Shown here: piece after piece, positions 4,807-19,841 of the stretch
Position numbering within the stretch: position 1 is the stretch's first letter
How the letters are laid out: the number at the start of each line of letters is the position of its first letter
Virus record (IMG/VR): IMGVR_UViG_3300020169_000927
Location: 1-20,021 of that record
Origin: a virus
DNA length: 20,021 nt
Strand: one strand, 5' to 3'
Position numbers and translations under genes: made by a program
Notes under the pieces: generated by a model
The model's database searches: none
What the model saw: only the letters and a program-made list of their open reading frames with translations
What the model was told of the DNA's origin: nothing

Positions 4807-5292
4807 ATGAAAAAGATGGTAATGAACATAACTAGCGGAATTATAACTATGTCTATACTGACAGGGATTACGATGAGTGCTCTAATGTCTCCAGCTGTTG
4901 ACCCGCAAGAACTAGAATGTTTAGCGATGAATATATATCATGAAGCACGTAGTGAACGCGTTGAAGGTCAACTTGCTGTGGCACATGTAACTGCTAATAG
5001 AGTTGCTCATGATAAGTGGGGTTCAACTATATGTGAAGTAGTATACGAACCTAAACAGTTTAGCTGGACTTTCTTATTAGAAGATCACACACCACATGAG
5101 ACTGCTGCATATAAAAAAGCTGAAGTTATTGCTCGTGATGTTTTAATTGGTAATACAGAAGATCCTACATATGGTGCTGTATTCTATCACGCGAGTTATG
5201 TTAATCCATCATGGGTCAAGTATATGGATATTTCTAAAATAATTGGCTCGCATATATTTTACACATGGGATGGAGACTGGAATGCAAATTAA
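4807..5292 (+). CDS. SleB-type cell wall hydrolase, probable endolysin
   Basis: The 161-residue protein has an N-terminal hydrophobic segment (about 7-28) that could be a signal peptide or signal-anchor-release helix, followed by a Hydrolase_2 (SleB/CwlJ) domain. Visible landmarks are LECLAMNIYHEARSE at 36-50 with catalytic Glu 46, LAVAHVTANRV at 56-66, STICEVVYEPKQFSWT at 73-88, and FYHASYVNPSW at 126-136. These enzymes cleave peptidoglycan. With its own export signal, this lysin may need a holin only for timing. ATG 4807 has AAGGA directly upstream, but the promoter at 4772 would start transcription there; ATG 4816, 4822 and 4849 are alternatives. The next gene overlaps its end. Confidence 0.85.
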   Translation: MKKMVMNITSGIITMSILTGITMSALMSPAVDPQELECLAMNIYHEARSERVEGQLAVAHVTANRVAHDKWGSTICEVVYEPKQFSWTFLLEDHTPHETAAYKKAEVIARDVLIGNTEDPTYGAVFYHASYVNPSWVKYMDISKIIGSHIFYTWDGDWNAN

Positions 5293-6852: not shown

Positions 6853-7221
6853 ATGAAGACAACTACAATTGCAATTGCCATGACTATGTTGGCATCTACA
6901 GTATCAGCAGCAGACCTAGATATTGGTGGTCAAACCATCTCAGCTGGCGGCGAGCTTGATATGAACTATACAACTGGCACAGAACTATGGGCATTGGATT
7001 TTACTCCTAAAGCCGGTCTTAATGCCTTTGGTGTAGACTTCTCAGTGGATACAACACTTGATGTTATGTCTTTGAACGATGCTTCTAAAGAATCATTTAC
7101 AGGCCTTGACTTTGTTGCTGGTTATACAATTGGTGGCGGGCTTCGTGCTTACACCGAAGTTGGTACAAACTCAGACCTAGAATTTGGTGATGTGACAATG
7201 GGCGCTACATTCAACTTCTAA
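6853..7221 (+). CDS. Small secreted protein with outer-membrane barrel features
   Basis: The 122-residue precursor has a clear Sec signal peptide (MKTTTIAIAMTMLASTVSA, likely cut before ADLDIGG). The mature part of about 103 residues alternates hydrophobic and polar residues in short strands (LDMNYTTGTELWALDFTPKA, GLRAYTEVGT, LEFGDVTMGATFNF). It ends in Phe with another Phe two residues before, the C-terminal signature read by the BAM machinery. About six to eight short strands are possible, small for a barrel. It could alter phage receptors, permeability or surface exclusion. It has its own upstream region with palindromes and a strong terminator behind it. The signal peptide is confident; the barrel and role are inference. 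Confidence 0.65.
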   Translation: MKTTTIAIAMTMLASTVSAADLDIGGQTISAGGELDMNYTTGTELWALDFTPKAGLNAFGVDFSVDTTLDVMSLNDASKESFTGLDFVAGYTIGGGLRAYTEVGTNSDLEFGDVTMGATFNF

Positions 7222-7319: not shown

Positions 7320-7598
7320 ATGGACTTTTTGACCCTAGTGGGAGATGTTGGATTTCCAATTGCAGGAGCACTTGCTGCTGGTGTATTTGTTTTTATAACA
7401 TTGAAGTTTATTCTAGCAAGTGTGACAGCTTCGGTTAACACTCTAAAGAATATAATTGGATCATTAGATAACAGAGTCCAGACTATGAACAACGACTTGG
7501 TAAAGATAGATGCTTTGCTTAGTTACGCATTAAATGTAAAACCGAATATAGATCGGATTGCAGCTAATGAAGGTAAGGAAGACGCAAGGAGAGATTAG
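7320..7598 (+). CDS. Single-pass membrane protein, GFPI type (first of pair)
   Basis: A 92-residue protein with a perfect AAGGAG ribosome site. The N-terminus reads VGDVGFPIAGALAAGVFVFI, leading into one transmembrane segment (about 9-33), followed by a heptad-like helical region (VTASVNTLKNIIGSLDNRV, then TMNNDLVKIDALLSYAL) that could form a coiled coil, and a charged end. The GFPI-membrane-coiled coil layout recalls small phage and Gram-positive membrane proteins of the YvrJ/BhlA type, sometimes called holins. The next gene encodes a similar protein, so the two may form a heteromer. Position directly before csgF and csgG suggests either a late lysis role or an inner-membrane component of the curli export route. 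Confidence 0.6.
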   Translation: MDFLTLVGDVGFPIAGALAAGVFVFITLKFILASVTASVNTLKNIIGSLDNRVQTMNNDLVKIDALLSYALNVKPNIDRIAANEGKEDARRD

Positions 7599-7957
7599 TG
7601 GATTTAGATATCGCAAAAGCAATAAGTGACTATGGCTTCCCAATTGTGGGTGCTATTGGTATGGGATATTTTATCTACTTTATTTGGAAATGGGTGACAG
7701 AAGAAATTGATCCAATATTGGGTCAAACAATGGGTACGTTAATCAAACTGGTTGATCGTATTCGCATGCTTGATAATGATATGATAAGGTTAAACAGTAA
7801 GCTATCGATGGTTCTCGAACATAGAGGTATGGACGACGAAGTTGCTAAGCTACAAAGTAAAAGTGAATCATTCAACTCAACAGGTCAAGCAGATGATAAA
7901 CCAGAACAACCTAAGCCTGAGCCTAATTCTTTTGGTGTTACTCCCAACACAAAGTAA
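7598..7957 (+). CDS. Single-pass membrane protein, GFPI type (second of pair)
   Basis: Translation starts at GTG 7598, sharing a base with the upstream TAG and preceded by AGGAG at 7587-7591. The 119-residue product is a paralogue in layout of the previous one: ISDYGFPIVGAIGMGYFIYF leads into one membrane span (about 12-33), then comes a helical segment (LIKLVDRIRMLDNDMIRLNS) and a long hydrophilic Pro/Gln/Glu-rich tail (DDKPEQPKPEPNS). The shared D-x-GFPI-x-GA core and the LDND/MNND motif in the helix indicate common ancestry. The last 65 bases also encode the csgF signal peptide in another frame, so the tail composition is partly constrained by csgF. Function unknown. Confidence 0.6.
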   Translation: MDLDIAKAISDYGFPIVGAIGMGYFIYFIWKWVTEEIDPILGQTMGTLIKLVDRIRMLDNDMIRLNSKLSMVLEHRGMDDEVAKLQSKSESFNSTGQADDKPEQPKPEPNSFGVTPNTK

Positions 7958-8363
7958 TGCTGAATTAGGATTTAGTTTTAAGAACCCATCCTTTAGTGGT
8001 AATGGGTATTCTAGTCATGTCTTGAGTGTAGAGCAACTTCAGCATAATAGAATAGAAGATCGTAAAGATGAAGCTGAGGCCGAAGCTAGACGGATCGAAA
8101 GAGAGTTGGAGAATACTACTCTCAATAAATTTATTAAAAACTTAGAATCAAGAATCTATGCTACACTCAGTAAGCAGATGGTTGATTCTATGTTTGCTTC
8201 CTGTACAGGCGAGACGTGTCCAACAACAGGTACTACAGAGATTGAAGGTAGTACAATAGAGTGGACTAAAGATCTGGTAACAGAAGAAATAACATTAACT
8301 ATTACAAATGCTGATGGAACCACAACCATAACAATACCAGGCGCAGGGGAGTTTGCATTTTAA
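7893..8363 (+). CDS. csgF: CsgF-like curli assembly protein
   Basis: I place the start at ATG 7893, inside the upstream gene, because it gives a normal signal peptide (NLSLSLILLVLLPTQSNA) with cleavage before ELGFSFKNPSFSGN. That mature N-terminus is the CsgF hallmark (E. coli has a closely similar FQFRNPNFGGN) and is the part that plugs into the CsgG pore. Then come a charged helix (about 50-72), LNKFIKNLESRIYATLSKQMV (77-97; E. coli FTQAIQSQILGGLL region), and C-terminal strands IEWTKDLV and LTITNADGTTTITIPG (E. coli TDRKTGQTSTIQVSG). At 156 residues it is slightly longer than E. coli CsgF (138). A Cys pair (C104, C109) may form a disulfide. The stop overlaps the csgG ATG. The Shine-Dalgarno is weak, suggesting translational coupling. 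Confidence 0.88.
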   Translation: MINQNNLSLSLILLVLLPTQSNAELGFSFKNPSFSGNGYSSHVLSVEQLQHNRIEDRKDEAEAEARRIERELENTTLNKFIKNLESRIYATLSKQMVDSMFASCTGETCPTTGTTEIEGSTIEWTKDLVTEEITLTITNADGTTTITIPGAGEFAF

Positions 8364-9163
8364 TGAGATACTTTTTGATAACGCTTTTGATGCTGGCTGG
8401 TTGTGTAGATCCAAATCAAATGGCTCCTATGAATGCTAAACCAATGGTGCAGTCTTCACCCAATGACATATTCAACTATAAGCAGTTGGATGGTAAGAAG
8501 ATGACAATTGCTGTATATGGTTTCACTGATAAGACAGGTCAAAGAAAACCTAGTATGACCACTTCAAACCTTAGTAGCGCGGTAACGCAGGGCGCTGAGG
8601 TGTGGGTAATAAAGGCTCTGCAGGATGTTGGGGCGTGTACCTGGTTTGAGGTAGTTGAAAGAGTAGGTTTAGATAATCTAGTTAAAGAAAGACAATTGGT
8701 TAGAAATACCAGAGAAATATATGAAAAGAAATTGGCTAAAGGTCCTACACCTTTAAAGCCTATGGTATTTGCAGGTTTAATATTAGAAGGTGGAATAGTA
8801 GGATACGACTCAAGTGTTGTAACAGGCGGGACAGGCGCTAGGTATTTGGGCATTGGTGCTCAGATGGATTACAGAGTCGATACAGTGACAATAGTTATGC
8901 GGTTAGTAAGTGTCAGTACAGGTAAAGTATTACTGAGTGTTGCCACAGAAAAGACCATCGCGAGTCATAGGAGTGGAGCAGATGTGTTTAAGTTTTTAGA
9001 CATGGGCACCAAACTCATAGAAGCGGAAACTGGCTACAGTATGAATGAGCCAGTTAATTATGCAGTTAGATCAGCAATTGAAGCTGGCGTTATTGAATTG
9101 ATTAATGAAGGAGAATCAAAACAATTCTGGACATTCTTAGAAGATCCTAAGAATGGCGGATAA
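8363..9163 (+). CDS. csgG: CsgG-like curli secretion channel lipoprotein
   Basis: The 266-residue protein aligns through its length with E. coli CsgG (277), the nonameric outer-membrane pore that exports curli subunits. Landmarks are a lipobox LAGC with lipidated Cys 14, MTIAVYGFTDKTGQRKP at 47-63, VVERVGLDNLVKERQLVR at 97-114, LEGGIVGYDSSVVTGGTGAR at 141-160 with YLGIGAQMDY after it, VSVSTGKVLLSVATEKTI at 182-199, ETGYSMNEP at 222-230 and SAIEAGVIELINEG at 237-250. At the pore constriction, E. coli Tyr51-Asn55-Phe56 corresponds to Ser/Met, Asn 69 and Leu 70, so the Asn is kept while both aromatic rings are missing. It is coupled to csgF and lies 11 bases before the first curlin gene. No CsgE adaptor gene is seen. 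Confidence 0.95.
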   Translation: MRYFLITLLMLAGCVDPNQMAPMNAKPMVQSSPNDIFNYKQLDGKKMTIAVYGFTDKTGQRKPSMTTSNLSSAVTQGAEVWVIKALQDVGACTWFEVVERVGLDNLVKERQLVRNTREIYEKKLAKGPTPLKPMVFAGLILEGGIVGYDSSVVTGGTGARYLGIGAQMDYRVDTVTIVMRLVSVSTGKVLLSVATEKTIASHRSGADVFKFLDMGTKLIEAETGYSMNEPVNYAVRSAIEAGVIELINEGESKQFWTFLEDPKNGG

Positions 9164-9174
9164 AGGAAAGTACA

Positions 9175-9906
9175 ATGAAAAATCTTAATAGATATATCAT
9201 TATGGGCGCGTTGTGTTCAGTAACACCTGTTACAACAATAGCTAACGACATCTACATTCAACAAGTGGGTGATACACTAGACTTGGACATCGTACAAGAT
9301 GGACAAGATAACAGTATTGGAACATCACCTGGTATGGGCAATCAAGATATGGTCTTAGGTTCAGCTGGCAATGCATCTGACAACATGACATTTAGTATTA
9401 CTCAAACGGGTAATCAGAACAAAATCACTGCTCAAATATTAGGTAGCACCTACACCGGTACTTGGACATTCACTGGTGATAATAATGAAGTTGATTTACT
9501 TTGTTCTAGCACTTCAGCAGCTAACTGTGGTAACGTGACTTTAAACATTGCCGCTACTGGTGATAATCAAGATTACACAATCAACATTGGTGAAACAACA
9601 GATGCAGGTTCTGCTACTATTAACTTCACTGTAACAGATGATGATAATATTATCGCTACAGATGTAAATGGCACAAGTGCTGATATCACAGTTGTTATTG
9701 ATGGAAGCACTAGCTTAGAAACAATTGATAGTACATTGGATATTGATGTATCAGGTAATGGTGACATCAACGGACACACAATTAACTTTGATGCTACAGG
9801 TAGAGGTCATACAATTAAGTTTGATCAAAGCGGTGTGTATGACAACACAATTGACTTAACAACAAGTGGTGATAATCAAAATATCAACATCACACAATCT
9901 GACTAG
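9175..9906 (+). CDS. Curlin-like secreted repeat protein 1 (divergent)
   Basis: The 243-residue precursor starts with AGGAAAGTACA upstream of the ATG and has a signal peptide (YIIMGALCSVTPVTTIA) with likely cleavage before NDIYIQQVGD. The mature protein is rich in Asn, Asp, Thr and Gly with very few Lys or Arg. Q-x-G motifs of curlin repeats occur at 30-32, 41-43, 77-79 and 218-220, and related T-G-D-N segments at about 100, 128 and 231 have lost the Gln. The mature N-terminus closely matches that of the second curlin-like protein (NEVYVRQVGD). It follows csgG by 11 bases, so it is an expected CsgG substrate: a nucleator (CsgB role), minor subunit or specialised fibre protein. Two Cys residues (C110, C118) could form a disulfide. 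The repeat fold is inferred. Confidence 0.8.
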   Translation: MKNLNRYIIMGALCSVTPVTTIANDIYIQQVGDTLDLDIVQDGQDNSIGTSPGMGNQDMVLGSAGNASDNMTFSITQTGNQNKITAQILGSTYTGTWTFTGDNNEVDLLCSSTSAANCGNVTLNIAATGDNQDYTINIGETTDAGSATINFTVTDDDNIIATDVNGTSADITVVIDGSTSLETIDSTLDIDVSGNGDINGHTINFDATGRGHTIKFDQSGVYDNTIDLTTSGDNQNINITQSD

Positions 9907-9934
9907 TTGACCTTTTTCAACTTTGTGGTATAAT
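9907..9934 (+). promoter_or_regulatory. Sigma70-like promoter
   Basis: TTGACC at 9907-9912 begins right after the first curlin stop, and TATAAT lies at 9929-9934 (spacer 16). It would give the FecR, second curlin and cyclase genes their own, host-polymerase-driven transcript, independent of the late promoter at 7294. Confidence 0.75.
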
Positions 9935-9961
9935 AAGGTGCCAGCCTTAGTGAGGGGCAGT

Positions 9962-11089
9962 ATGTTTAGAAGTTTATTAATTTTCTTAATGACAGCTTCA
10001 CCGGTCTTCGCAAACATCGGTGAAGTTTCTACTGTCAGGGGAAGTGGTAGTGGCGCGATTGAACGAGGCAATGATGCCATCGATGCTAAAAAGGGCGTTG
10101 GTGTTGAAATGCTTGATACAGCAGTCACTGCTAACTCCTCTATGCGTATTGACTTCATAGATGATACGAGAGTAGATATTACTGAACATTCACGGTTAGT
10201 TATAGATGACTTTGTGTATGATCCAAACACTGGTACAGGTTCATTGGGGCTTAAAGCTAGTCTGGGTACTGTAAGATATGCGTCTGGTCAGATAGCAAAG
10301 AATAGTAGACAACGAGTTAGAATAAGAACACCATCTGCAACTATTGGTGTACGTGGTACAGACTTTGTTATGGTTATAGACGAAGCTGGCGGAAGTATGA
10401 TAACTCTATTACCAAGTTGTGATACAGCTGGTATGTGTTATACAGGAGAGATAACAGTAGAGACAGATGCAGGGTTTGTTATTCTTAATCAAGCCTTCCA
10501 AGCAACCATTGCTTCAAATTCAATGTCTCCTCCCACAAAACCTTTACTATTAGACTTAGACGAATCAATGATAAACTCATTGTTGATACTACGCAAAAAG
10601 AATCCTTATTATGTAGAAGAAGCTCAAATAATAAAGAGGAAGCAGGCAGACGCAGATTTTCTTGGATTAGACTTTTTACAATACGAAGGTCTTGATTATG
10701 ATGCACTAGTTGACTCTATCGAAGGCATATGGATTACAGCGTTGGAAGAAACGGATCAGATGCTCCAGAATTTATTATATGATATGTTAGATCAACTTAA
10801 CAAAGCGTTGATGAGATTGTTTCAAGATGAACTGTCAATACAGAACTCTTTTTTATTATCAGAAGAAGCAAAGGTATATGGATATAATCCTATGACAGGT
10901 CTTACACTACTAAATGAAACTCCTAATTGGGTATTCTCGCGGAGAGATGATAATGAAGGAAACTTTGTGCAGTTAAGATTAAATCAGGGATATGGTTATA
11001 CTATAGACCTCAAACAGGGAGACTGGGAGTTATATGACTATAGGTTGGGCGAAAGCACTAATAATAGCATCAACATTATCCAGCAGTAA
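9962..11089 (+). CDS. Secreted FecR-domain protein
   Basis: I choose ATG 9962, which has GAGGGG just upstream and lies after the promoter; the frame opens earlier, but ATG 9923 overlaps the -10 region. The 375-residue precursor has a signal peptide (FRSLLIFLMTASPVFA) and then a FecR domain: GEVSTVRGSGSGAIERG, a central SMRIDFIDDTRVDITEHS strand pair, and RVRIRTPSATIGVRGTDFV, the hallmark TP-x-A-T-x-x-V-RGT-x-F motif, at about 120-138. Classical FecR has a cytoplasmic anti-sigma part before this domain; here only the periplasmic part is present, so sigma regulation is unlikely. The C-terminal 190 residues are mainly helical and not recognised. The gene overlaps the curlin gene by 56 bases and is in one operon with the CHASE2 cyclase. 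FecR-domain proteins often neighbour CHASE2 cyclases in bacteria, suggesting one sensing unit. Confidence 0.8.
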   Translation: MFRSLLIFLMTASPVFANIGEVSTVRGSGSGAIERGNDAIDAKKGVGVEMLDTAVTANSSMRIDFIDDTRVDITEHSRLVIDDFVYDPNTGTGSLGLKASLGTVRYASGQIAKNSRQRVRIRTPSATIGVRGTDFVMVIDEAGGSMITLLPSCDTAGMCYTGEITVETDAGFVILNQAFQATIASNSMSPPTKPLLLDLDESMINSLLILRKKNPYYVEEAQIIKRKQADADFLGLDFLQYEGLDYDALVDSIEGIWITALEETDQMLQNLLYDMLDQLNKALMRLFQDELSIQNSFLLSEEAKVYGYNPMTGLTLLNETPNWVFSRRDDNEGNFVQLRLNQGYGYTIDLKQGDWELYDYRLGESTNNSINIIQQ

Positions 11090-11888
11090 CTGTTGGGCAA
11101 ATGAGGTTTATGTGAGGCAAGTCGGCGATAATACAGACATGACTATCACTCAAGATGGTGCTAACAATAAGATAACTGGTTTGGGTGGAAATTCGAGTAA
11201 AGCTCAAGTAAGTGGTAATAACACAAGCACTACATATACACAAACAGGTGACACTAATCAAGTGCGTGTATGGATGAGTTCTGGTAATGGAATAAACAAT
11301 GTCTCGCAAACAGGCGATAACAACTCAGCAAGATTAGATTGCCATGGTAATAATTGTGTTATTGATATTGAACAAAATGGCAATTCTAATTATGCAAATT
11401 CCGAACTAGGTAATGGTGGTGATTATGATCAAACTATTATTATTGATCAAGATGGTAATTATAACTTTGCAAAAGTAGAAGCAAACGGTGATGACAATAC
11501 TATTACTGTAGACCAAGATGGTAACAATCATATAGTACATGGGTACGGTAACACACCAATAACTGGTGATAGAAATAACATTACACTTGTACAAGATGGA
11601 TCACAATACAATCAAGCTCAGGCGAAGGTTGTTGGAAATGATAACACAATAGATGGATATCAAGGTGGACAATATAACTTTGGTAGACTGGTACTAACAG
11701 GTGACGACCATGATGTGACGAGTTCACAGGAAGGTACTGGATCTCATAGTATGACTTTAGACCTTACTAATGGTGGTGGGGCGTATACTGTAAATACAAT
11801 ACAAAACAGTTCAAATAGCCAAACATATTCAATGACAGGAACATGCACCAATTCAAGTGGATGTGGAATAACAGTAACACAATATTGA
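11034..11888 (+). CDS. Curlin-like secreted repeat protein 2 (major amyloid candidate)
   Basis: ATG 11034 has GGGAG at 11025-11029 and gives a signal peptide (KALIIASTLSSSNCWA) cut before NEVYVRQVGD; the start lies inside the FecR gene in another frame. The 284-residue precursor has ten Q-x-G motifs (Q at 29, 40, 70, 92, 114, 139, 161, 187, 210, 232), most spaced 22-26 residues, each followed by N or D and preceded by a beta-prone strand (TITVDQDGNN, IIIDQDGNYN). This is the curlin strand-loop-strand pattern known from CsgA and CsgB, which stack as a beta-solenoid amyloid. It is about twice the size of CsgA (131 residues mature) and very acidic. It ends GITVTQY, which could be a capping strand. 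Expected to leave the cell through the CsgG-like pore encoded upstream. Fibre formation is inferred. Confidence 0.85.
   Translation: MTIGWAKALIIASTLSSSNCWANEVYVRQVGDNTDMTITQDGANNKITGLGGNSSKAQVSGNNTSTTYTQTGDTNQVRVWMSSGNGINNVSQTGDNNSARLDCHGNNCVIDIEQNGNSNYANSELGNGGDYDQTIIIDQDGNYNFAKVEANGDDNTITVDQDGNNHIVHGYGNTPITGDRNNITLVQDGSQYNQAQAKVVGNDNTIDGYQGGQYNFGRLVLTGDDHDVTSSQEGTGSHSMTLDLTNGGGAYTVNTIQNSSNSQTYSMTGTCTNSSGCGITVTQY
11118..11735 (+). repeat. Tandem curlin repeats within the second curlin gene
   Basis: This stretch encodes residues 29-234 with the ten Q-x-G units. Units are diverged at the DNA level, with recurring words such as CAAGATGG and CAAACAGG for QDG and QTG, so the array is old rather than a recent duplication. 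Confidence 0.75.
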
Positions 11889-11895
11889 GGATATA

Positions 11896-13932
11896 ATGAA
11901 AAGATTATTAAGCCCATGGTGGGCACTACTCACACTAGCAGCTTTAACATATATGTTTGCTACTCCATCTAACTTTATTCAAAGTGTTAAATTAAATTAC
12001 TTTGATACTCTTATTGTTAATCAAGAGCCTGTTGAGAATAACATATACGTTGCAGAGATAGATGAAGCAGCATTAGAGAAGTATGGTCAATATCCTTTTC
12101 CGAGAGACATATATGGTGATATTATCAGAGACATATACGATCGTGGTGCTGGATTAGTTGTATGGAATATAATGATGCCAGAACCAGATCGTTTTGGTGG
12201 TGATGCTGTTTTAGGTAATGTGTTATATGACTATCCAGTTGTAGTAGCAACAAGACCATCACATAAGAGTGTTAATGAAGCTATCAATCCTGGGGCTGCT
12301 ATTATCAATCCAGAATACTTAGATATGCTATTACCATATGATGGAATTATAGCCAACATATCTGACATTGAATTTAATGCAGTAGGATCTGGTATAGTAA
12401 GCACAGAACCAGAAATAGATGGTGTAGTTAGAAGGATGCCTACTGTAGCTGTAGTAGACGGCACGTTATACCCGTCTCTGGCGCTAGAAACCCTAAGAGT
12501 AGTGGCTGGTGATATATCTTTTCAAATTAAACTACAACCCAATGGTGTAGAGAAAATGAGAATACCTCAGTTTGGTATTATCCCAACAGATAATGAAGGA
12601 CGTGTATGGATTGATTGGTCACAGAAATCTAAGAATGTATCTGTAGCAAACATGCCAGATGACTTTGCTGGAGCGGTTGTTATAGTAGATGTGACTGCAG
12701 CAGGTATTGCTAACCCAGCACCTACTGCCATTGGATCAGTCTTTGCTGGACAGACTCAAGCGGCTGTTCTTGGAACAATGTTTGCTGGTACTAATATACA
12801 AAGACCAGATTGGGCAAGTGCTATAGAATTATTATCATTGGTTGTTGGTAGTTTACTGTTGATCATTTTAAGCAGATGGATGATTGTGGGTCTAATCACA
12901 ACAGTAGCTCTTATTGGATCTATAGTACCGTATTCAATGTATGCGTATGCTACAGATAAGTTTCTTTTAGATGTTACTGCTCCTACTATCACATTTGTGA
13001 TCATAGCGCTACAAGTATACGGTATAAAGTTTGTTAGAGAGTTCTTAGAGAAGCAAGCAATCAAGAAACAATTTGCTGGTTATGCATCAGCAGAAGTTGT
13101 AGAGATATTACAGAAGAATCCAAAATTAATTAAAGAAGGTCAGAAGAAAGAGGTATCCATTGTATTCTCAGACCTTAGAGGTTTCACCCCATTGGGTGAA
13201 TCGTTCGGAGATGATGTTAAAGGCTTGACAACAGTGATGAACAATTATATGGATGCAATAACAAAACCTGTGCTAGATGCAGATGGAATGATTATTAAAT
13301 ATATTGGTGATGCATCAATGCACATACACAACGCTCCAATCAATGATCCGCAACATCCTAAGACAGCGGTTCAGGTTGGACTCAACATGCTAAAAGCAGT
13401 GGAGAAATTTAATGAAAAACTTATGGAACAAGGTAAACCGAAAGTTGGTATGGGTGCCGGTATTAATACTGGCCTTGGTTATGTTGGAGAGATGGGTTCT
13501 AATGCCCGCCACTCCTATGATATCCTCGGAGACAGTGTCAGTACAGCCGCTAGACTCGAAAGCGCCTGTAAAGGATACGGAGTAGTCTTAATTGTAGGAC
13601 CTGCAACTTATGATGCTACAGAGAACGACTTCTTTTATTTGAAGTTGGACGATTTGGCAGTTAAGGGTAAGTCTATAGGACTAGAAATTTATACAGTCCT
13701 AGATATTGAAAGGTCCAAGCATGGCGTGTCCATGCTTGACCACAACACAATGCATAACTTTTATAGAACACAACACTTTGATCAAGCTATTGTTATCTGC
13801 GAACAACTAAAAGGCTGCTTTGAAGGTAAGATGGATGAATACTATGATATATGGATTGATCGTTGTGAGTATATGAAGAAACAAGATTTGTCTTACGATT
13901 GGGATGGAATCTTTAGAGCAACCTCAAAATAG
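11896..13932 (+). CDS. CHASE2-domain class III adenylate cyclase
   Basis: The 678-residue protein has an N-terminal membrane segment (about 7-23), an extracytoplasmic CHASE2 domain (about 30-300; note VAEIDEAALEKYGQYPFPR and EPEIDGVVRRMP), three membrane spans (about 309-378), and a cytoplasmic class III cyclase domain (about 415-600). Visible catalytic residues: metal-binding D426 in VFSDLRGF and D472 in KYIGDA, purine-selecting K468 and D542 (the Lys/Asp pair typical of ATP use), and transition-state R553 in AARLES. The usual transition-state Asn is replaced by Ser 549 (GDSVSTAAR). The C-terminal tail (YRTQHFDQA through WDGIF) is the standard ending of bacterial CHASE2 cyclases, so the gene looks complete. 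GAGGATATA gives a ribosome site. Predicted role: sense an extracytoplasmic cue, perhaps through the FecR-domain protein, and change host cAMP. Activity depends on tolerance of Ser 549. Confidence 0.92.
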   Translation: MKRLLSPWWALLTLAALTYMFATPSNFIQSVKLNYFDTLIVNQEPVENNIYVAEIDEAALEKYGQYPFPRDIYGDIIRDIYDRGAGLVVWNIMMPEPDRFGGDAVLGNVLYDYPVVVATRPSHKSVNEAINPGAAIINPEYLDMLLPYDGIIANISDIEFNAVGSGIVSTEPEIDGVVRRMPTVAVVDGTLYPSLALETLRVVAGDISFQIKLQPNGVEKMRIPQFGIIPTDNEGRVWIDWSQKSKNVSVANMPDDFAGAVVIVDVTAAGIANPAPTAIGSVFAGQTQAAVLGTMFAGTNIQRPDWASAIELLSLVVGSLLLIILSRWMIVGLITTVALIGSIVPYSMYAYATDKFLLDVTAPTITFVIIALQVYGIKFVREFLEKQAIKKQFAGYASAEVVEILQKNPKLIKEGQKKEVSIVFSDLRGFTPLGESFGDDVKGLTTVMNNYMDAITKPVLDADGMIIKYIGDASMHIHNAPINDPQHPKTAVQVGLNMLKAVEKFNEKLMEQGKPKVGMGAGINTGLGYVGEMGSNARHSYDILGDSVSTAARLESACKGYGVVLIVGPATYDATENDFFYLKLDDLAVKGKSIGLEIYTVLDIERSKHGVSMLDHNTMHNFYRTQHFDQAIVICEQLKGCFEGKMDEYYDIWIDRCEYMKKQDLSYDWDGIFRATSK

Positions 13933-13935
13933 ATT

Positions 13936-14646
13936 TTAAAAATTTGTTATCTGTACATGCTTTTCAAATGACGGGAAGGACCATAAGTCATCAAGGTTTC
14001 CCTTACGGTGACTTTCTATTAGTATATCTCTGTTTAAGACATCTGGATGTGTTTTTCTGTCCATATTAGAATTTGGATAACCGATCCCAACAATACACTT
14101 TGCAAATGTGTTTTTAATACCTAACACATCATCTTCTCTAAATGCAGAACAACAGCCTGTTCTATATCCTAATAAATTGGCCGTAAGTAATAATTGACCT
14201 ATAGCTATTCCTGTACCAATATCAATTATTCTATTTTTAACTATATGGGTATACAGATCCTCTTTATAGGTCTCATCATCAACAATCAGGTGAGTTCTTG
14301 CTCTGGCTTTAGATTGATCCCAATCATCACAGAAAGCTATTATTAAATTTGCATTTAGCTGAGAATTGGTTACACAGTATTCATCTGGAGTATCTCCATT
14401 ACTACTTATAGGAACACTATCATCAGCTACAGAGAAGTATTTTGTTCTGCTATAAACTTCCTCTATTTTAGACTGGTTAGAAGACCAATATATTTTGTAA
14501 TTAGTTTCATTCTGTTTTGTAGGTGCATATCGAATAGAGGAGAGCATCAAATCAATGTCTTCTTGTGGAATGTTTATATCACGTTTCCAGTTTCTTTGAC
14601 ATGGATTAGTGTTTTTTATAGCTGAGAGAAGCTCATCTTTATCCAT
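13936..14646 (-). CDS. Nitroreductase-family FMN oxidoreductase
   Basis: A 236-residue protein read leftward from an ATG preceded by AGAGGAA. It fits the nitroreductase fold: QRNWKRDINIPQEDIDLML at 17-35 (FMN phosphate-binding Arg region), SSIRYAPTKQNETNYKIYW at 36-54 (the APS-x-N-x-QP loop), DIGTGIAIGQLLLTANLLGY at 142-161 (central helix followed by the GCCSAF segment), and CIVGIGYPN near 184-192. Members reduce nitro groups, quinones or flavins, or act as dehydrogenases in biosynthesis. It ends 3 bases from the convergent cyclase gene without a terminator hairpin, and starts divergently from the short SDR gene across a 157-base AT-rich gap. The substrate is unknown; the neighbouring oxygenases suggest a place in the same redox pathway. 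Confidence 0.75.
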   Translation of the reverse strand: MDKDELLSAIKNTNPCQRNWKRDINIPQEDIDLMLSSIRYAPTKQNETNYKIYWSSNQSKIEEVYSRTKYFSVADDSVPISSNGDTPDEYCVTNSQLNANLIIAFCDDWDQSKARARTHLIVDDETYKEDLYTHIVKNRIIDIGTGIAIGQLLLTANLLGYRTGCCSAFREDDVLGIKNTFAKCIVGIGYPNSNMDRKTHPDVLNRDILIESHRKGNLDDLWSFPSFEKHVQITNF

Positions 14647-14738
14647 TATATTCCTCTTTATTTAACTTATTTAGTGTATCTTTTATGTTACACTTTAGCG
14701 TTATTTTAAAATTAATTGTAAAAAAAGCAAATTAGTTG

Positions 14739-14767
14739 TTTACATCTATATCTATATGTGTTATATT
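14739..14767 (+). promoter_or_regulatory. Extended -10 sigma70-like promoter
   Basis: TTTACA at 14739-14744 and TATATT at 14762-14767, spacer 17, with TGT directly before the -10 (extended -10). It starts the two-gene SDR and AspH-like transcript, and excludes the longer SDR reading frame from ATG 14756, which would begin upstream of the transcript start. Confidence 0.65.
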
Positions 14768-14803
14768 AGTTATAGAAACAACAACAAAGTAAAGATTTAC
14801 ATA

Positions 14804-15226
14804 ATGGAATTTTATATTACCGGTACTAGACGAGGCTTAGGTAAAGCTCTTGTTGACAAGTACGGAAACGTAAATACATTAGATGAATGTGATGTGTTTA
14901 TTAACTGTAAGCACAATGGCTTTGAGCAAGTAGAAATGCTATACAAAGCAGCTAAGTTAGACAAACGAATCATTAACATTGGATCTCACGCAAGTGATTT
15001 TACTTACCTACACGAATATGCTGTAGAGAAGAGAGCATTACGTGAAGCAAATGCTATGATGTTTATAAAAGGTATAAAGACTACTTGTCTTAACTTTGGA
15101 TATATAGACACAGAGAGATCAGCTCATAAAGAAGTTGAGAAGATGTCTATAGATTATATAATAGAGGTTATAGAATGGGTACTACTACAACCACACTCAG
15201 TCAAGGAACTAACAATATCAGCATAG
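14804..15226 (+). CDS. Very short SDR-like oxidoreductase
   Basis: The start is ATG 14804, the first one downstream of the promoter, giving 140 residues. The protein opens with a Rossmann NAD(P) motif, FYITGTRRGLGKAL at 3-16 (TGxxxGLG). It retains the other SDR landmarks in compressed form: DVFINCKHNG at about 30-39, an active-site Ser in INIGSHAS at about 57-64, Y-x-x-x-K in YAVEKRAL at about 73-80, and CLNFGYIDTE at about 95-104 (the PG-x-I-x-T segment). Normal SDRs are about 250 residues; here several helices between these motifs are missing, yet the frame is intact. It may be a minimal active reductase, or a binding protein that kept only the cofactor core. It is co-transcribed with the AspH-like gene. 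Confidence 0.7.
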   Translation: MEFYITGTRRGLGKALVDKYGNVNTLDECDVFINCKHNGFEQVEMLYKAAKLDKRIINIGSHASDFTYLHEYAVEKRALREANAMMFIKGIKTTCLNFGYIDTERSAHKEVEKMSIDYIIEVIEWVLLQPHSVKELTISA

Positions 15227-15654
15227 ACATTGATCATATACTATTAGAGATATCCAGTCTTCCTGAATATAACGAACAGCTATCGTTACAGATATCTTCT
15301 CAAGGAGCGTCTGCAGAAGGTAGGTTTAATAACCTATCATCTAGTGAAAAGGATTTTAATCATTTTGCTTATGATCTACCATATACCAACTCTGTTATAA
15401 GCTCTCTAGGAATGTATCGCACTCGTCTAATGAAGATGACAGAAAAGACATGCTATACCTATCATTGGGATCCATCTAAGAGAATGCATATACCTTTAGT
15501 TACCAACGACGATTGTTTCTTTGTTATAGAGGATCAGGTCAGTAGATATCCAGCAGATGGTTCTCACTACTTAGTAGACACAACTAAGAAACACACATTT
15601 GTTAATGCTTCTAGGTTTGAGCGGATTCACATTGTGGGTTGCGTAGATAGTTAA
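15175..15654 (+). CDS. Aspartyl/asparaginyl beta-hydroxylase-like oxygenase
   Basis: ATG 15175 lies within the end of the SDR gene (52-base overlap) and has GAGG 7 bases upstream. The 159-residue protein matches the AspH-like double-stranded beta-helix: YHWDPSKRMHIPLVTND at 96-112 (R103, H105, the R-x-H-x-P motif), and KKHTFVNASRFERIHIVG at 138-155 (distal H140, 2-oxoglutarate-binding Arg at 147 or 150). This family hydroxylates peptides or small molecules with Fe(II) and 2-oxoglutarate, and often uses two His ligands without the carboxylate. The N-terminal 60 residues are not recognised. Its end overlaps the convergent gene by 44 bases. Substrate unknown. Confidence 0.7.
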   Translation: MGTTTTTLSQGTNNISIDIDHILLEISSLPEYNEQLSLQISSQGASAEGRFNNLSSSEKDFNHFAYDLPYTNSVISSLGMYRTRLMKMTEKTCYTYHWDPSKRMHIPLVTNDDCFFVIEDQVSRYPADGSHYLVDTTKKHTFVNASRFERIHIVGCVDS

Positions 15655-16165
15655 TATCACCTTTATAAAACACATACTGTAGATTGTTTGCTTTCTTTAA
15701 AGGTGGGCTTCCTATCTGTAGCTTATCTGGATACACATTCCATTCTTTAAATATATCAGGGCGGGCTCTTTTTAGTTTAGTAAAGAAACCTTTACTGAAT
15801 TCACGTGTCCAAATTATAAGAGGTACATTAAGATTATCTACACAATAGGTAAGCTCTTTAAAATCATCCACCTTTTCAAACATAGATGTTCCATCTGTTC
15901 TAAAGTCTTTGTAATGATAATACCTGGACATGACTCTTACTACTCCAGGATATATATTCTCACATCCAGAGCATAACACAGGTTTGTTATTATCAAATAC
16001 AAAGTTAAACATTACCATTCTATCTAAGTTTAGATTTGAAAAAGAGTAGTTATCTGATAATCTATCGGTGTCTTTTTCTATTTGTAGTTGTAGAAAAGCA
16101 TCGTTACACAAGTCAGTTTCTTCATAAGTAATTTTCGAGTCTTTTATATAAGAAACTATTCTCAC
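15611..16165 (-). CDS. Hypothetical protein, last gene of leftward oxygenase operon
   Basis: A 184-residue protein that I do not confidently recognise. It starts in an ATGA overlap with the upstream oxygenase gene and ends inside the convergent AspH-like gene. Features: a central strand MVMFNFVFDNNKPVLCSGC, then GVVRVMSRYYHYKDFRTDG, which weakly recalls the acetyl-CoA motif strand and loop of GNAT acyltransferases, then VPLIIWTREFSKGFFTKLK and a C-terminal LQYVFYKGDINYL. There is no signal or membrane segment. Strict coupling to the operon suggests a part in the same pathway, possibly as an acyl- or amino-group transferase, but that is a guess. Confidence 0.6.
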   Translation of the reverse strand: MRIVSYIKDSKITYEETDLCNDAFLQLQIEKDTDRLSDNYSFSNLNLDRMVMFNFVFDNNKPVLCSGCENIYPGVVRVMSRYYHYKDFRTDGTSMFEKVDDFKELTYCVDNLNVPLIIWTREFSKGFFTKLKRARPDIFKEWNVYPDKLQIGSPPLKKANNLQYVFYKGDINYLRNPQCESAQT

Positions 16166-16827
16166 AGAATTGATTCAACTCTATCTTTAAACGAATGGAA
16201 GTCAATAGCAGGTATGTTATTCCATCTTGTGACAAAGGCACATCTAGGAGCCTCTGTAATAATTACTCTATGCATTATCTCTGTATCAATAAGACAAGGC
16301 TTATCAATAATAATCTCACCAATCTTACGATCAGCTAAAAACTTTTCAAACTCTGGTGTACCTTGACCCATTTGACTTTGCGCTTTAAATTCGTGGTAAT
16401 AGTAATACCCCTGAGCGTTCTTTTCAGGTAGGCATATCTCATCTTCTAATGTTTCAAAATAATCTAAACGACTCGCTCCAAGTACTGGATATATGATATT
16501 GTATCCTTGGCTGTGTTCTCTATTCTGATCTATATCAGTATGAGGGAATACATCTTTCTCTGTACTATCAGCAGTATTAAATCCAGTTGATCTAAACTGA
16601 TAATGTGGATGTACTTTTCTATGTTGAGATAAGATAGGATCATATATAGCTTCATAGCCAGTGTCTTCACCTGTCATATTAAACTCTAATGAATAACTTT
16701 CGAATGGTGTCTTACCAAAAACATTAAAGTCCTCTCCAGCTCTCGCACCTTTTACTTTTTCATATAGATCGAGTAACAGTTCGTGTTGAGGATCAACGTC
16801 TACATATTCTGCAATGCCTGGTATCAT
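16162..16827 (-). CDS. 2OG-Fe(II) oxygenase-like protein
   Basis: A 221-residue protein coupled at both ends by ATGA overlaps. The iron-binding pattern of 2-oxoglutarate oxygenases is visible: FPHTDIDQN at 94-102 (H96-x-D98), then a strand YNIIYPVLGASRLDYFE at 109-125, and PCLIDTEIMHRVII at 177-190 with distal H186, followed by Arg 195 for 2-oxoglutarate. Spacing of about 90 residues between the first His and the distal His fits the prolyl-hydroxylase/PhyH-like fold. Such enzymes hydroxylate or otherwise oxidise peptides, nucleobases or small molecules. Marine T4-like phages often carry several. Its neighbours here are redox and transfer enzymes rather than DNA genes. Confidence 0.7.
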   Translation of the reverse strand: MIPGIAEYVDVDPQHELLLDLYEKVKGARAGEDFNVFGKTPFESYSLEFNMTGEDTGYEAIYDPILSQHRKVHPHYQFRSTGFNTADSTEKDVFPHTDIDQNREHSQGYNIIYPVLGASRLDYFETLEDEICLPEKNAQGYYYYHEFKAQSQMGQGTPEFEKFLADRKIGEIIIDKPCLIDTEIMHRVIITEAPRCAFVTRWNNIPAIDFHSFKDRVESIL

Positions 16828-17228
16828 AATACACCTTCAATAAATGGATCATCATATTCTTTTACGAACACACCATCTTCTATAAGCATAGCATATCGTT
16901 TACATCTGATACCCATATAATCACCAAAGTCAACATCTTTACCAATGTACTTACTAAACACTGCTAACGGATCTGCTACTGCGTCAATATCAGGATGACC
17001 ATGTAGTACATTCCATTCATGCATAACACTTGGATCATTAACAGCAACAAATACTACCTTAGCATCTAGCTTATCTAAATTCTTTGCAAAGCCTGGTAGA
17101 TGTCTTTTAGTACATCCTGGAGTAAAAGCTCCTGGTACTCCACATAGTATAACTTTACCTTGTGGTAATGTATAAGGTACATAGTCATCATCTTTAAGTA
17201 TGTATAGCCCTTTAGTGTCTAATCCCAT
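16824..17228 (-). CDS. Peroxiredoxin, Prx5-like
   Basis: A 134-residue thioredoxin-fold peroxidase. The peroxidatic site reads VPGAFTPGCTKRHLPGF at 31-47 with Cys 39, the PGAFTP-x-C-x-x-HLPG signature of the Prx5 subfamily. VFVAVNDPSVMHEW at 59-72 and RCKRYAMLIEDG at 108-119 are the other conserved strands (the first usually followed by W). It is slightly shorter than typical Prx5 (about 160), lacking part of the C-terminus. No clear resolving Cys is seen, so it may be a 1-Cys enzyme. It removes hydroperoxides, which would fit a pathway with several oxygenases and a flavin reductase. ATG 17228 overlaps the upstream gene by 10 bases. Confidence 0.85.
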   Translation of the reverse strand: MGLDTKGLYILKDDDYVPYTLPQGKVILCGVPGAFTPGCTKRHLPGFAKNLDKLDAKVVFVAVNDPSVMHEWNVLHGHPDIDAVADPLAVFSKYIGKDVDFGDYMGIRCKRYAMLIEDGVFVKEYDDPFIEGVL

Positions 17229-17803
17229 TTCTCATTCCAATCATTATATTCATTTTTAAAATAATCTTTATTGTCTGATTTATATAGTAGATAGTTGTTT
17301 ATCTTATCAGACATCTCAATAAAGTGTTCTTGGTTATCTGGTATAACATGCTTCCAACCATATGTAGATACGTCTGTATGTATTACATTAGCACCCAACT
17401 TCTTAAATATATCTTTAGTCTGAGCCATGTGTCTACTACCACCCTCTTTACCACTAGGAGTAAACGTAAGAAGTATTACATGCTTATTAGACCAAGGATA
17501 TCCTTTGCCATGCTCTAAGTTCATATTTGATATTACTACAGCCCAGTCTAGTAGGTTCTTTGTACTTGAACTCATCATACCAGTAAACTCTGGTATTGCA
17601 AATACAAACTTATCAAACTGATACATCATATCAAATACAGCAGTAACATCTTCAGGTATATCTGCATCCATACCATTAACATTTACCACAGGTATATCAT
17701 AGTCAGCCAAGCAATCTATTCTGTCAAACTCACAACTTAATAGCTGTAGCCCTCTATAATTAATACTGTTAGGTGCTTGTGATGTACTCAGTGCTAATAT
17801 CAT
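17219..17803 (-). CDS. NADPH-dependent FMN reductase-like flavodoxin-fold protein
   Basis: A 194-residue protein with the flavodoxin-like FMN reductase layout: LALSTSQAPNSINYRGLQLL at 3-22 (phosphate-binding loop, S-x-x-S-x-N-x), FDKFVFAIPEFTGMMSSSTK at 63-82 followed by NLLDW (the P-x-Y/F-x-G-x-x-x-x-x-K-N-x-x-D motif that holds the isoalloxazine ring), and NKHVILLTFTPSGKEGGSRH at 105-124. These enzymes supply reduced flavin or reduce quinones. It follows the AspH-methyltransferase gene with an ATGA overlap and precedes the peroxiredoxin. A role as electron supplier for pathway enzymes is plausible. Confidence 0.8.
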   Translation of the reverse strand: MILALSTSQAPNSINYRGLQLLSCEFDRIDCLADYDIPVVNVNGMDADIPEDVTAVFDMMYQFDKFVFAIPEFTGMMSSSTKNLLDWAVVISNMNLEHGKGYPWSNKHVILLTFTPSGKEGGSRHMAQTKDIFKKLGANVIHTDVSTYGWKHVIPDNQEHFIEMSDKINNYLLYKSDNKDYFKNEYNDWNEKWD

Positions 17804-19026
17804 AATGTTACATCCGCCACTAATCTGCGACCCGCAAATATTTCAAGGTCAAGTTTATATTCTTTAAATTCTTTATACATGTTTTTATATTCTTCCATAT
17901 CGTCTGATATTCTATTTAAAATCAAACCAGCTTTCCAATGACGTTGCCATGGCATAGGTTCTTGAATGATAGCATTAGGGCTTTTATATATACCACTAGT
18001 AATCTTATGAAAAAACTCAAAATGATCATCAGGTCTGTATAACAATACACCGCTCCACATAACTTGATCTACATCAAAGTCAACAAGGAAAGCTTCTAAG
18101 TTATTCCAAGACTCGTGTCTAAATTCTATATTATTATAATCTTTCCACTTCTCTGTTGCTATATCAATAGGCTCCTTAGATGTATCAAACCCCATATACT
18201 CAAAATCAGTATAACCTTTTGAGTGTAATATATCTAATACAGGTCCATGTCTACAGCCAACATCAACGATACCTTTACATTGTTTTTCTATAATAATATT
18301 TGCTTGAGTTTCAAATAGCTCATATGCTTCTGGTGAATCGAGATAAGCCATATCACTAAATTCATAATCTTCCTTTAGAGGTACCTTCTGACCGTTGTCT
18401 ATTTTTGTTTTAATTTCTGGCCACGGTACATTCTCACTCGGTTGGTTCCAAAAGTCGTGATCAACATCAAATAGATCATCAACGTCCAGATAACAGTTTA
18501 ATGCTCTGCGAGGTATATTAGTCGGGTCATTTAATGTATAAACACCATGAGCTTGAGTGTTATTATTAAACATTACTATGTCACCTGGGCCATATATACA
18601 ATGTTCATATTCACCCGTCTCATTATTTTTTACATAGAGGTGTACATCATTTTCCATAGCTATGTTAACAGTAATAGGAGGTCTACCAAATTTACTAGGG
18701 TCATCTTCAAATACTACTTTATCCCATTCTGATATTCCAGTCACGTGTGCATTTGATAGTGTATCTACATGCTCTAACAGCTCAGTAGTCTGACATCTCC
18801 AATCCCACATCCAGCCTTTTTTCTTTATAGGGTATCCTATACCTCTTTCAATTGCTTCTTGCAAATGTTTGGGGAAGTTTTCTTCAGAGATATTGTGATA
18901 CCAAATCCCCAGTGGGTTAGGATGTTCAATATGTTCTTCATACACTTCTAGTGGAAACAGTTCATCAAGCTCTCTTACAAACTCTCTCCAATCATAATCT
19001 AGTTTAAATTTTCTAATAACGCTCAT
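17800..19026 (-). CDS. AspH/cupin-like oxygenase domain fused to SAM methyltransferase
   Basis: I start at ATG 19026, in an ATGA overlap with the aminotransferase gene; the frame extends 10 codons further into that gene. The 408-residue protein has two parts. Residues about 1-185 look like an AspH/cupin beta-helix: RPPITVNIAMENDVHLYV at 115-132, GPGDIVMFNNNTQAHGVY at 146-163 (His 160) and RRALNCYLDV at 173-182; a first His at the R-x-H-x-P position is not evident. Residues about 215-408 form a class I methyltransferase with motif I IVDVGCRHGPVLDIL at 243-257, an acidic MGFDTS at 268-273 and VMWSGVLLY at 302-310. The fusion suggests consecutive modification of one substrate, possibly one held by the cupin-like domain. 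The substrate is unknown. Confidence 0.7.
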   Translation of the reverse strand: MSVIRKFKLDYDWREFVRELDELFPLEVYEEHIEHPNPLGIWYHNISEENFPKHLQEAIERGIGYPIKKKGWMWDWRCQTTELLEHVDTLSNAHVTGISEWDKVVFEDDPSKFGRPPITVNIAMENDVHLYVKNNETGEYEHCIYGPGDIVMFNNNTQAHGVYTLNDPTNIPRRALNCYLDVDDLFDVDHDFWNQPSENVPWPEIKTKIDNGQKVPLKEDYEFSDMAYLDSPEAYELFETQANIIIEKQCKGIVDVGCRHGPVLDILHSKGYTDFEYMGFDTSKEPIDIATEKWKDYNNIEFRHESWNNLEAFLVDFDVDQVMWSGVLLYRPDDHFEFFHKITSGIYKSPNAIIQEPMPWQRHWKAGLILNRISDDMEEYKNMYKEFKEYKLDLEIFAGRRLVADVTL

Positions 19027-19841
19027 GTCATATCTTTGAATAAAGGTGTTAGACATATACGAGCAACATCACCTGCTCGCCTTCGCCTTGTGTAGTATCT
19101 ATCTTTGGTTGTAGCCAAGTAAAATACATCTGAAGGAGTAAACTCATATTCTTTACAAATATCTAATTGCATCTTTCTATACCTATTAAACATGCTATCC
19201 ACAGCAAAGTTATTCATTATTAATTGCATGGTTCTAACACCACCATAGTTCCAGTTTTCATATTCTTTTAATCTATGTAATGTAGGATGTGGCTCTTTTG
19301 TATACACTAAGCCTAATCTTTGCCCAATCAATCCAAAACCTTTAGAGAAAGAAAAGAACACTTGCTCTGTTCGTTCAGGAACATTAATAGTCTTCATGGC
19401 CGTTGAACTAACATATGTGCAATCAAGTATGACAGGTGATTGAGCATGAGAATAAATTATATTTCCATCAGCTGCTGCTGGGTTAGAAAGATATAGAGGT
19501 TGACCTAAAACTTTTGTACCCTTTCCACCAATCATATTAGCATATTCATATTCACCTTCAGGTAGCTGCCATTTTCTATCTTCGGTAAGTACCCAATGAT
19601 GTATAGCATCAGTAACACCGTGAGTATAATAACAGTATGGGAACTCTGATAAGTCAATCATACTGCTTACCCAATGCCTATGAGTAGCCTCAACATGATT
19701 TAATTCATCAGTTGCTTCTCCTGAACCCCTACTGAAATATGTGTCCGATACTTTCTGAGTCTGTAGTAGCGTTTCTACATCTCTAATACGAGGTACATTT
19801 ACATATGGAAAGTTTCTTAGTTCAGCTTTTCGAGTAGTCAC
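19023..19841 (-). CDS. Compact PLP-dependent aminotransferase-like protein
   Basis: Translation begins at GTG 19841 with GGAG upstream. The 272-residue protein keeps the core of fold-type I aminotransferases: YYTHGVTDAIHHW at 71-83 (cofactor phosphate-binding turn), ILDCTYVSSTAMK at 138-150 (the Asp contacting the pyridine N), VFFSFSKGFGLIGQRLGLVY at 161-180 with the Schiff-base Lys 167 and Arg 175, and RICLTPLF at 261-268 (end of the small domain, carboxylate-binding Arg). It is about 100 residues shorter than usual, mainly lacking parts of the C-terminal domain, but the frame is intact. It could transaminate an amino acid or act as a PLP lyase. It is coupled to the methyltransferase fusion downstream. 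Confidence 0.75.
   Translation of the reverse strand: MTTRKAELRNFPYVNVPRIRDVETLLQTQKVSDTYFSRGSGEATDELNHVEATHRHWVSSMIDLSEFPYCYYTHGVTDAIHHWVLTEDRKWQLPEGEYEYANMIGGKGTKVLGQPLYLSNPAAADGNIIYSHAQSPVILDCTYVSSTAMKTINVPERTEQVFFSFSKGFGLIGQRLGLVYTKEPHPTLHRLKEYENWNYGGVRTMQLIMNNFAVDSMFNRYRKMQLDICKEYEFTPSDVFYLATTKDRYYTRRRRAGDVARICLTPLFKDMT

Follow-up and report, generated by a model that had tools for sequence, protein, structure and literature searches.

A viral curli module encodes a FecR-domain protein with a curlin-like tail and a CHASE2 adenylate cyclase

A type VIII secretion module in an IMG/VR virus

The window analyzed here, a 20,021-bp IMG/VR record (IMGVR_UViG_3300020169_000927) of a marine virus, carries a curli (type VIII secretion) module. 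The module occupies one strand from position 7320 to 13932 and encodes, in order, two small upstream proteins (S1 and S2), CsgF, CsgG, a first curlin, a FecR-domain protein, a second curlin, and a CHASE2-domain class III adenylate cyclase (AC) (Table 1). A preliminary description of this DNA had named three of these genes (FecR, the second curlin, and the cyclase), and all three lie where it placed them; they form the 3′ part of a larger curli locus whose CsgF, CsgG, curlin 1, S1, and S2 genes went unrecognized there. The same description had the curlin 2 start embedded in the FecR gene, as we also find, with the ATG 56 nucleotides (nt) inside; co-translation of the two through this overlap is plausible. 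The cyclase gene begins 7 nt downstream of the curlin 2 stop codon.

Neither the gene order nor the phage cyclase is new. Pelagiphages of two families have been reported to carry an HK-CsgF-CsgG-CsgA/B-FecR-CsgA/B-AC cluster, where HK is a histidine kinase (PMC9599517), and the pore has been discussed (PMC7029224, PMC9004378). The order seen in the window also occurs in two isolates, Pelagibacter phage HTVC008M and Methylophilales phage Melnitz. The preliminary description had reckoned with its possible absence from related phages; on the contrary, considerably more than 100 viral loci have it. The same description called a membrane adenylate cyclase borne by a phage unusual, which holds in general, although such cyclases had already been published (HTVC008M annotation; PMC9599517). 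As in the pelagiphage module, CsgF, CsgG, a curlin, and FecR follow one another on one strand in the window, and a second curlin and the cyclase come after them. The upstream kinase position is taken by two small transmembrane (TM)/coiled-coil proteins in which no kinase domain was detected, and small upstream proteins of the S1/S2 type, with median lengths of about 100 and 112 amino acids (aa), are probably the "HK" of PMC9599517. What appears to be new is the curlin-like tail of the FecR protein and the repeated swapping of the catalytic half of the cyclase. A text search of PMC9599517 found no description of the curlin-like FecR C terminus, of catalytic-domain swapping, or of a bacterial operon with the same gene order.

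Table 1. Features of the curli module in the window. AF2, AlphaFold2; pLDDT, predicted local distance difference test; pTM, predicted template modeling score.
Feature	Coordinates	Strand	Evidence or remark
S1, 92-aa small membrane protein (one TM + coiled coil)	7320..7598	+	phrog_18771; module-conserved in most viral loci, inverted ones included
S2, 119-aa S1 paralogue, GTG start	7598..7957	+	phrog_18771; conserved partner of S1
CsgF, curli pore accessory/chaperone	7893..8363	+	PF10614, E=2e-15
CsgG, curli outer-membrane secretion pore, lipoprotein	8363..9163	+	PF03783, E=6.5e-51
Curlin 1, fiber subunit, divergent repeats, C terminus ...NINITQSD	9175..9906	+	alignable with the curlin of Melnitz (PF07012) and with "CsgB" of HTVC008M
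Near-consensus sigma70 promoter, TTGACC-16-TATAAT, TG extension	9907..9934	+	11/12 match, 0.15 expected by chance
FecR-domain protein, signal peptide + curlin-like C-terminal domain	9962..11089	+	PF04773, 38 bits; AF2 model pLDDT 84
FecR beta-domain, aa 20-190	10019..10531	+	AF2 model; structure matches
FecR C-terminal seven-strand beta-domain, aa 307-374	10880..11083	+	AF2 model; related to curlin 2 C terminus (hhalign)
FecR terminal curlin strand, N368-x-I-x-I-x-Q374	11063..11083	+	Q374 invariant
Curlin 2, fiber subunit, beta-solenoid model	11034..11888	+	PF07012, E=7e-17, 61 bits (cutoff 20.7); AF2 pTM 0.83
FecR/curlin 2 gene overlap, 56 nt	11034..11089	+	curlin 2 ATG inside FecR gene
CHASE2/class III adenylate cyclase, 678 aa	11896..13932	+	PF05226, 106 bits; PF00211, 66 bits
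CHASE2 extracytoplasmic sensor domain, aa 14-323	11935..12864	+	PF05226
Class III cyclase catalytic domain, aa 415-593, D542/S549 type	13138..13674	+	exchanged between lineages

A curlin-like tail on the FecR protein

In an AF2 model built from 67 sequences, the FecR signal peptide (MFRSLLIFLMTASPVFA followed by NIGEV) leads directly into the FecR beta-domain, in keeping with the earlier observation that the protein has a signal peptide and no cytoplasmic anti-sigma part. A helical stretch (residues ∼200 to 299) connects this domain to the seven-strand C-terminal domain. The FecR domain fold matches solved FecR-type/PupR signaling domains (4m0n, 4m0h, 6ovk), and part of the model matches a "cell surface anchoring domain" (5ix9; root mean square deviation, 1.3 Å over 64 residues). 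A sequence search for solved relatives of the protein found none, and BFVD yielded only two other phage FecR proteins.

The C terminus is conserved at alternate positions: Q374 is present in 100% of sequences and I370 and I372 in ∼90%, while the residues between them vary freely. This alternating N-I-I-Q pattern reads as that of a curlin strand, and the curlins of the same operons end as FecR does. A regular expression for the tail matched 143 of 148 FecR clusters and 24 of 1,864 control viral proteins. Because that expression was derived from the FecR tails themselves and is therefore circular, we also used a position-specific scoring matrix built from curlin tails alone, and 135 of the 148 phage FecR clusters scored above the 99th percentile of controls. 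With the same matrix, only 2 of 85 bacterial FecRs passed, both from curli operons (0/83 elsewhere). We considered whether the tail is a by-product of the overlapping curlin 2 signal peptide and rejected this, as it is kept in 45 of 45 FecRs whose genes do not overlap curlin 2 and in loci with no downstream module gene, AC-less loci included.

The likeness extends beyond the last strand. Aligned by hhalign, the FecR C-terminal domain and the curlin 2 C terminus gave a probability of 65% and a score of 30.4 (27.7 without the tail), compared with a maximum of 19.1 among 150 column shuffles, none of which reached the observed score, and 13.6 for the reversed profile. The predicted relationship is moderate, and we infer its meaning. 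The FecR protein does not contain the full S-x5-Q-x4-N-x5-Q repeats (N-x5-Q occurs only at the C terminus and near residue 331, and Q-x4-N not at all), so FecR itself is not a curlin. Its C terminus provides a new physical reason to think that FecR reads the fiber.

Linkage of FecR, cyclase, and curli genes

Loci were fetched with four queries and annotated with hidden Markov models, giving a sample that favors relatives of the queries; AC has been reported to be less frequent in podoviruses (PMC9599517). Linkage in this sample was close to absolute. FecR and AC were both present in all 35 CsgG-anchored loci with enough flanking sequence, and FecR, CsgG, and curlin accompanied the cyclase in 37 of 37 AC-anchored loci. 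Among FecR-anchored loci, AC was found in 43/44 of a close set and 37/42 of a distant set. In the five exceptions of the distant set (L356, L384, L386, L387, and L399), the FecR tails are nearly identical, and these loci resemble a single lineage without AC. In several rearranged loci (L135, L137, L153, L155, L119, and L093), AC stays nearby though inverted or displaced.

Grouped by FecR cluster, 75 have both AC and curlin 2, 31 have AC without curlin 2, and 3 have no AC. FecR and AC are therefore a tighter pair than curlin 2 and AC, in line with the preliminary description, which took CHASE2 as the likely partner of FecR; FecR is in turn one of the curli genes of the module. The 31 clusters also led us to reject curlin 2 as the partner of the cyclase. 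FecR-domain proteins and CHASE2 cyclases had been described in advance as recurrent bacterial neighbors, and this holds: they co-occur in 19 of 63 bacterial FecR loci of at least 9 kb, within 430 bp of each other in 12, and in a published Campylobacterota cluster (PMC9239204).

Exchange of the cyclase catalytic domain

The predicted membrane enzyme retains its class III catalytic residues, with the metal-binding Asp426 and Asp472, the substrate Lys468, and the transition-state Arg553 invariant in 121 of 121 cyclase clusters; it is predicted to make cyclic AMP (cAMP). Active-site pairs fall into three types: Asp542/Ser549 in 75 clusters, including the window, Thr/Asn in 25, and Ser/Asn in 21. 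Every sampled bacterial cyclase with a readable motif has Thr or Ser with Asn.

The catalytic domain and the sensor domain have different histories. The window and Melnitz share 76% identity in the cyclase domain and 34% in CHASE2, whereas Melnitz and HTVC008M share 58% in CHASE2 and 37% in the cyclase domain. Two loci, L411 and L408, represent a recent catalytic-domain swap: their identity is 98% for CHASE2 and 93% for FecR, and only 54% for the cyclase domain, where they differ in active-site type. Mapped on quick FastTree trees, active-site type changes 3 times on the cyclase tree versus 22 times on the CHASE2 tree, 20 on the FecR tree, and 19 on the CsgG tree. This puts the number of catalytic-domain exchanges beneath a conserved sensor at about 20. 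Repeated replacement with the catalytic residues kept argues for an enzyme activity under selection, and sensor and enzyme both seem to be maintained.

Bacterial relatives

Two contigs from metagenome-assembled genomes (MAGs) of Caulobacteraceae (L246 and L247) carry CsgF-CsgG-curlin-curlin-FecR-CHASE2 cyclase, with FecR ending in INVTQD. On L246 the operon clearly lies between bacterial genes, encoding an acyl-CoA dehydrogenase, an amidohydrolase, a TetR-like regulator, and a metallophosphoesterase. This arrangement amid chromosomal genes provides a bacterial relative of the viral system. A full-length FecR of the curli type is rare: among 299 same-order and 385 same-class genomes it was found only in G001, with G002 besides. 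Many bacterial FecR-domain matches sit in proteins of ∼900 to 6,900 aa. In Sinorhizobium meliloti, CHASE2 cyclases signal through an outer-membrane partner (PMC13001267), which, like the Campylobacterota cluster, is a precedent for the route proposed below. Four other contigs, from MAGs named Rhodobacteraceae, Pirellulales, and Flavobacteriaceae (L242, L243, L244, and L245), carry the phage curli module and are probably misbinned viral contigs.

Fiber subunits and neighboring genes

The window copy of curlin 1 has no PF07012 match, while its Melnitz orthologue exceeds the cutoff (26 versus 20.7 bits). Melnitz has been stated to be without fiber genes (PMC9004378); contrary to that statement, its record contains two curlin-repeat genes. 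For curlin 2, CsgA and CsgB models match at E values of ∼1e-11 yet remain under their cutoff, and the AF2 model is a regular array of repeated 7-residue strands (a solenoid fold). Comparison of this model with the PDB gave no match below an E value of 0.001, and the identity of curlin 2 therefore rests on Pfam. No Pfam family matched S1.

The promoter between curlin 1 and FecR is shared, among the relatives checked, only with a near-identical locus (L164); in the others the FecR start lies on or beside the curlin 1 stop, without a promoter. FecR, curlin 2, and the cyclase may therefore form a separate transcription unit in this virus.

Upstream of the module, 2 kb before S1, the window encodes a secreted SleB-like cell wall hydrolase (positions 4807 to 5292; PF07486), a candidate endolysin or autolysin. 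A 122-aa secreted protein (6853 to 7221) resembles a short outer-membrane beta-barrel and has no family match. Downstream, positions 13936 to 19841 hold nitroreductase, redoxin, FMN reductase, methyltransferase, and aminotransferase-like genes. Most of these lie on the minus strand; this region is partly similar to Pelagibacter phage Mosig and contains a sign change in GC skew.

A possible route from curli assembly to cyclic AMP

A curlin-tailed FecR that cannot be separated from a cyclase with intact catalytic residues suggests monitoring of the fiber by the phage. In the model we favor, CsgG and CsgF would make up the outer-membrane pore, with curlins 1 and 2 as the exported subunits. FecR, exported to the periplasm, would dock on curlin near the pore through its C-terminal beta-domain and terminal strand, binding either subunits awaiting export or the fiber base. 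The FecR domain would then act on the adjoining CHASE2 domain of the inner-membrane cyclase, such that cAMP synthesis in the cytoplasm would be set by the state of the curli, in secretion or in assembly. We advance this as a tentative model whose chances we put somewhat short of even; it predicts docking of the tail, a FecR-CHASE2 contact, a direction of control, enzyme activity, and a use and target for the cAMP. The preliminary description had proposed that the phage changes host cAMP in response to an envelope state; its observation is confirmed and its interpretation partly supported.

Several results weigh against this model. FecR and CHASE2 distances, corrected for CsgG, correlate weakly (partial r = 0.25), a signal that gene adjacency could explain. 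The five loci without AC keep FecR and its tail, so FecR also has some function in which the cyclase takes no part. At the position of the transition-state Asn, 75 of 121 clusters, the one with the window among them, have Ser549, always with Asp542; Asn occupies it in the other 46. On the host side, the only hint is the partial downstream similarity to phage Mosig. We surveyed 197 genomes of Pelagibacterales, chosen as the order to which a Pelagibacteraceae single-cell genome belongs. A class III cyclase is encoded in none of the 197, and a cyclic nucleotide monophosphate (cNMP)-binding domain was found in only 14, mostly in one 870-aa open reading frame; 15 related phage records contained none. 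If the virus infects SAR11, there is thus no recognized cAMP receptor, which weakens the host-cAMP step. The 870-aa reading frame, which occurs in 13 of the 197 genomes (G360, G437, and others) and whose cNMP-binding domain is weak, is a possible cAMP receptor.

The main rival to a fiber-reading FecR is a structural or gating one: FecR would be an assembly part, acting as a CsgB-like nucleator, as a cell anchor, or as a gate of the CsgG pore in place of the missing CsgE, and the cyclase would sense another envelope cue and be merely co-transcribed. The curlin resemblance of the tail and C-terminal domain fits such a part, as do the persistence of the tail in AC-less loci, the match to 5ix9, and the lack of any report of CsgE for the curli of pelagiphages (PMC9599517). 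We judge it less likely than the model above. Against it, bacterial FecR-cyclase adjacency is independent of curli (19/63 loci; PMC9239204), and the FecR-AC linkage remains where curlin 2 is missing.

The remaining alternatives separate the cyclase or the pore from fiber sensing altogether. The cyclase might have another output, with cAMP acting on phage proteins or on host enzymes of unknown type or modulating host defense, and curli being a separate superinfection-exclusion or aggregation trait. Repeated, arms-race-like exchange of catalytic domains and the lack of a known cAMP receptor in Pelagibacterales or related phage records would suit this idea, but the cyclase family always lies within curli modules in our scan of relatives (37/37), and we regard the idea as improbable. 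Slightly less credible still is the proposal made for Melnitz, in which the CsgGF pore would serve as a channel of secretin-like or lysis-timing type, with the other genes as its regulators (PMC9004378). Melnitz isolates caused no host-cell clumping, and the authors found no fiber genes (PMC9004378); against this stand the curlin genes of Melnitz, of the window, and of all 35 CsgG-anchored loci with enough flank, and the presence of a pair of curlin genes in each operon favors secreted fibers.

Returning to a FecR that reads the fiber, we can frame it more broadly, and with slightly more reserve than the model above. Curli-linked FecRs may be hybrid transducers: curlin-like rungs, fused to a FecR signaling domain, would join the amyloid fiber or read it, and the state of its assembly would be relayed to a CHASE2 cyclase, the catalytic half of which viruses freely exchange. 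If so, viruses and at least one bacterial group would use a dedicated amyloid-assembly sensor with a second-messenger output. It would bear on the puzzle of the curli genes carried by widespread ocean phages and absent from their hosts, for which sibling capture, superinfection exclusion, and lysis timing have been suggested (PMC7029224, PMC9599517, PMC9004378). The FecR tail offers a simple, testable handle on the question.

Comparison with known systems

The curli operons of Escherichia coli, csgBAC and csgDEFG, have CsgG, CsgF, and curlin-repeat subunits in common with the phage module. The phage module adds FecR and the cyclase, and CsgC, CsgD, and CsgE were not among the module genes seen. 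FecR/PupR anti-sigma regulators share the periplasmic FecR domain fold with the window protein, which differs in having a curlin-like C-terminal domain and neither an N-terminal anti-sigma domain nor a TM helix. Bacterial FecR-CHASE2 neighbors (Campylobacterota, PMC9239204; alphaproteobacterial loci) likewise place a signal-peptide FecR beside a CHASE2 class III cyclase, but outside curli operons these FecRs are without the curlin tail (0/83). Closest of all is the type VIII secretion cluster of pelagiphages (PMC9599517; also PMC7029224, HTVC008M, and Melnitz), which has equal genes in equal order; the window represents a further member of this cluster, distinguished by an additional promoter before FecR.

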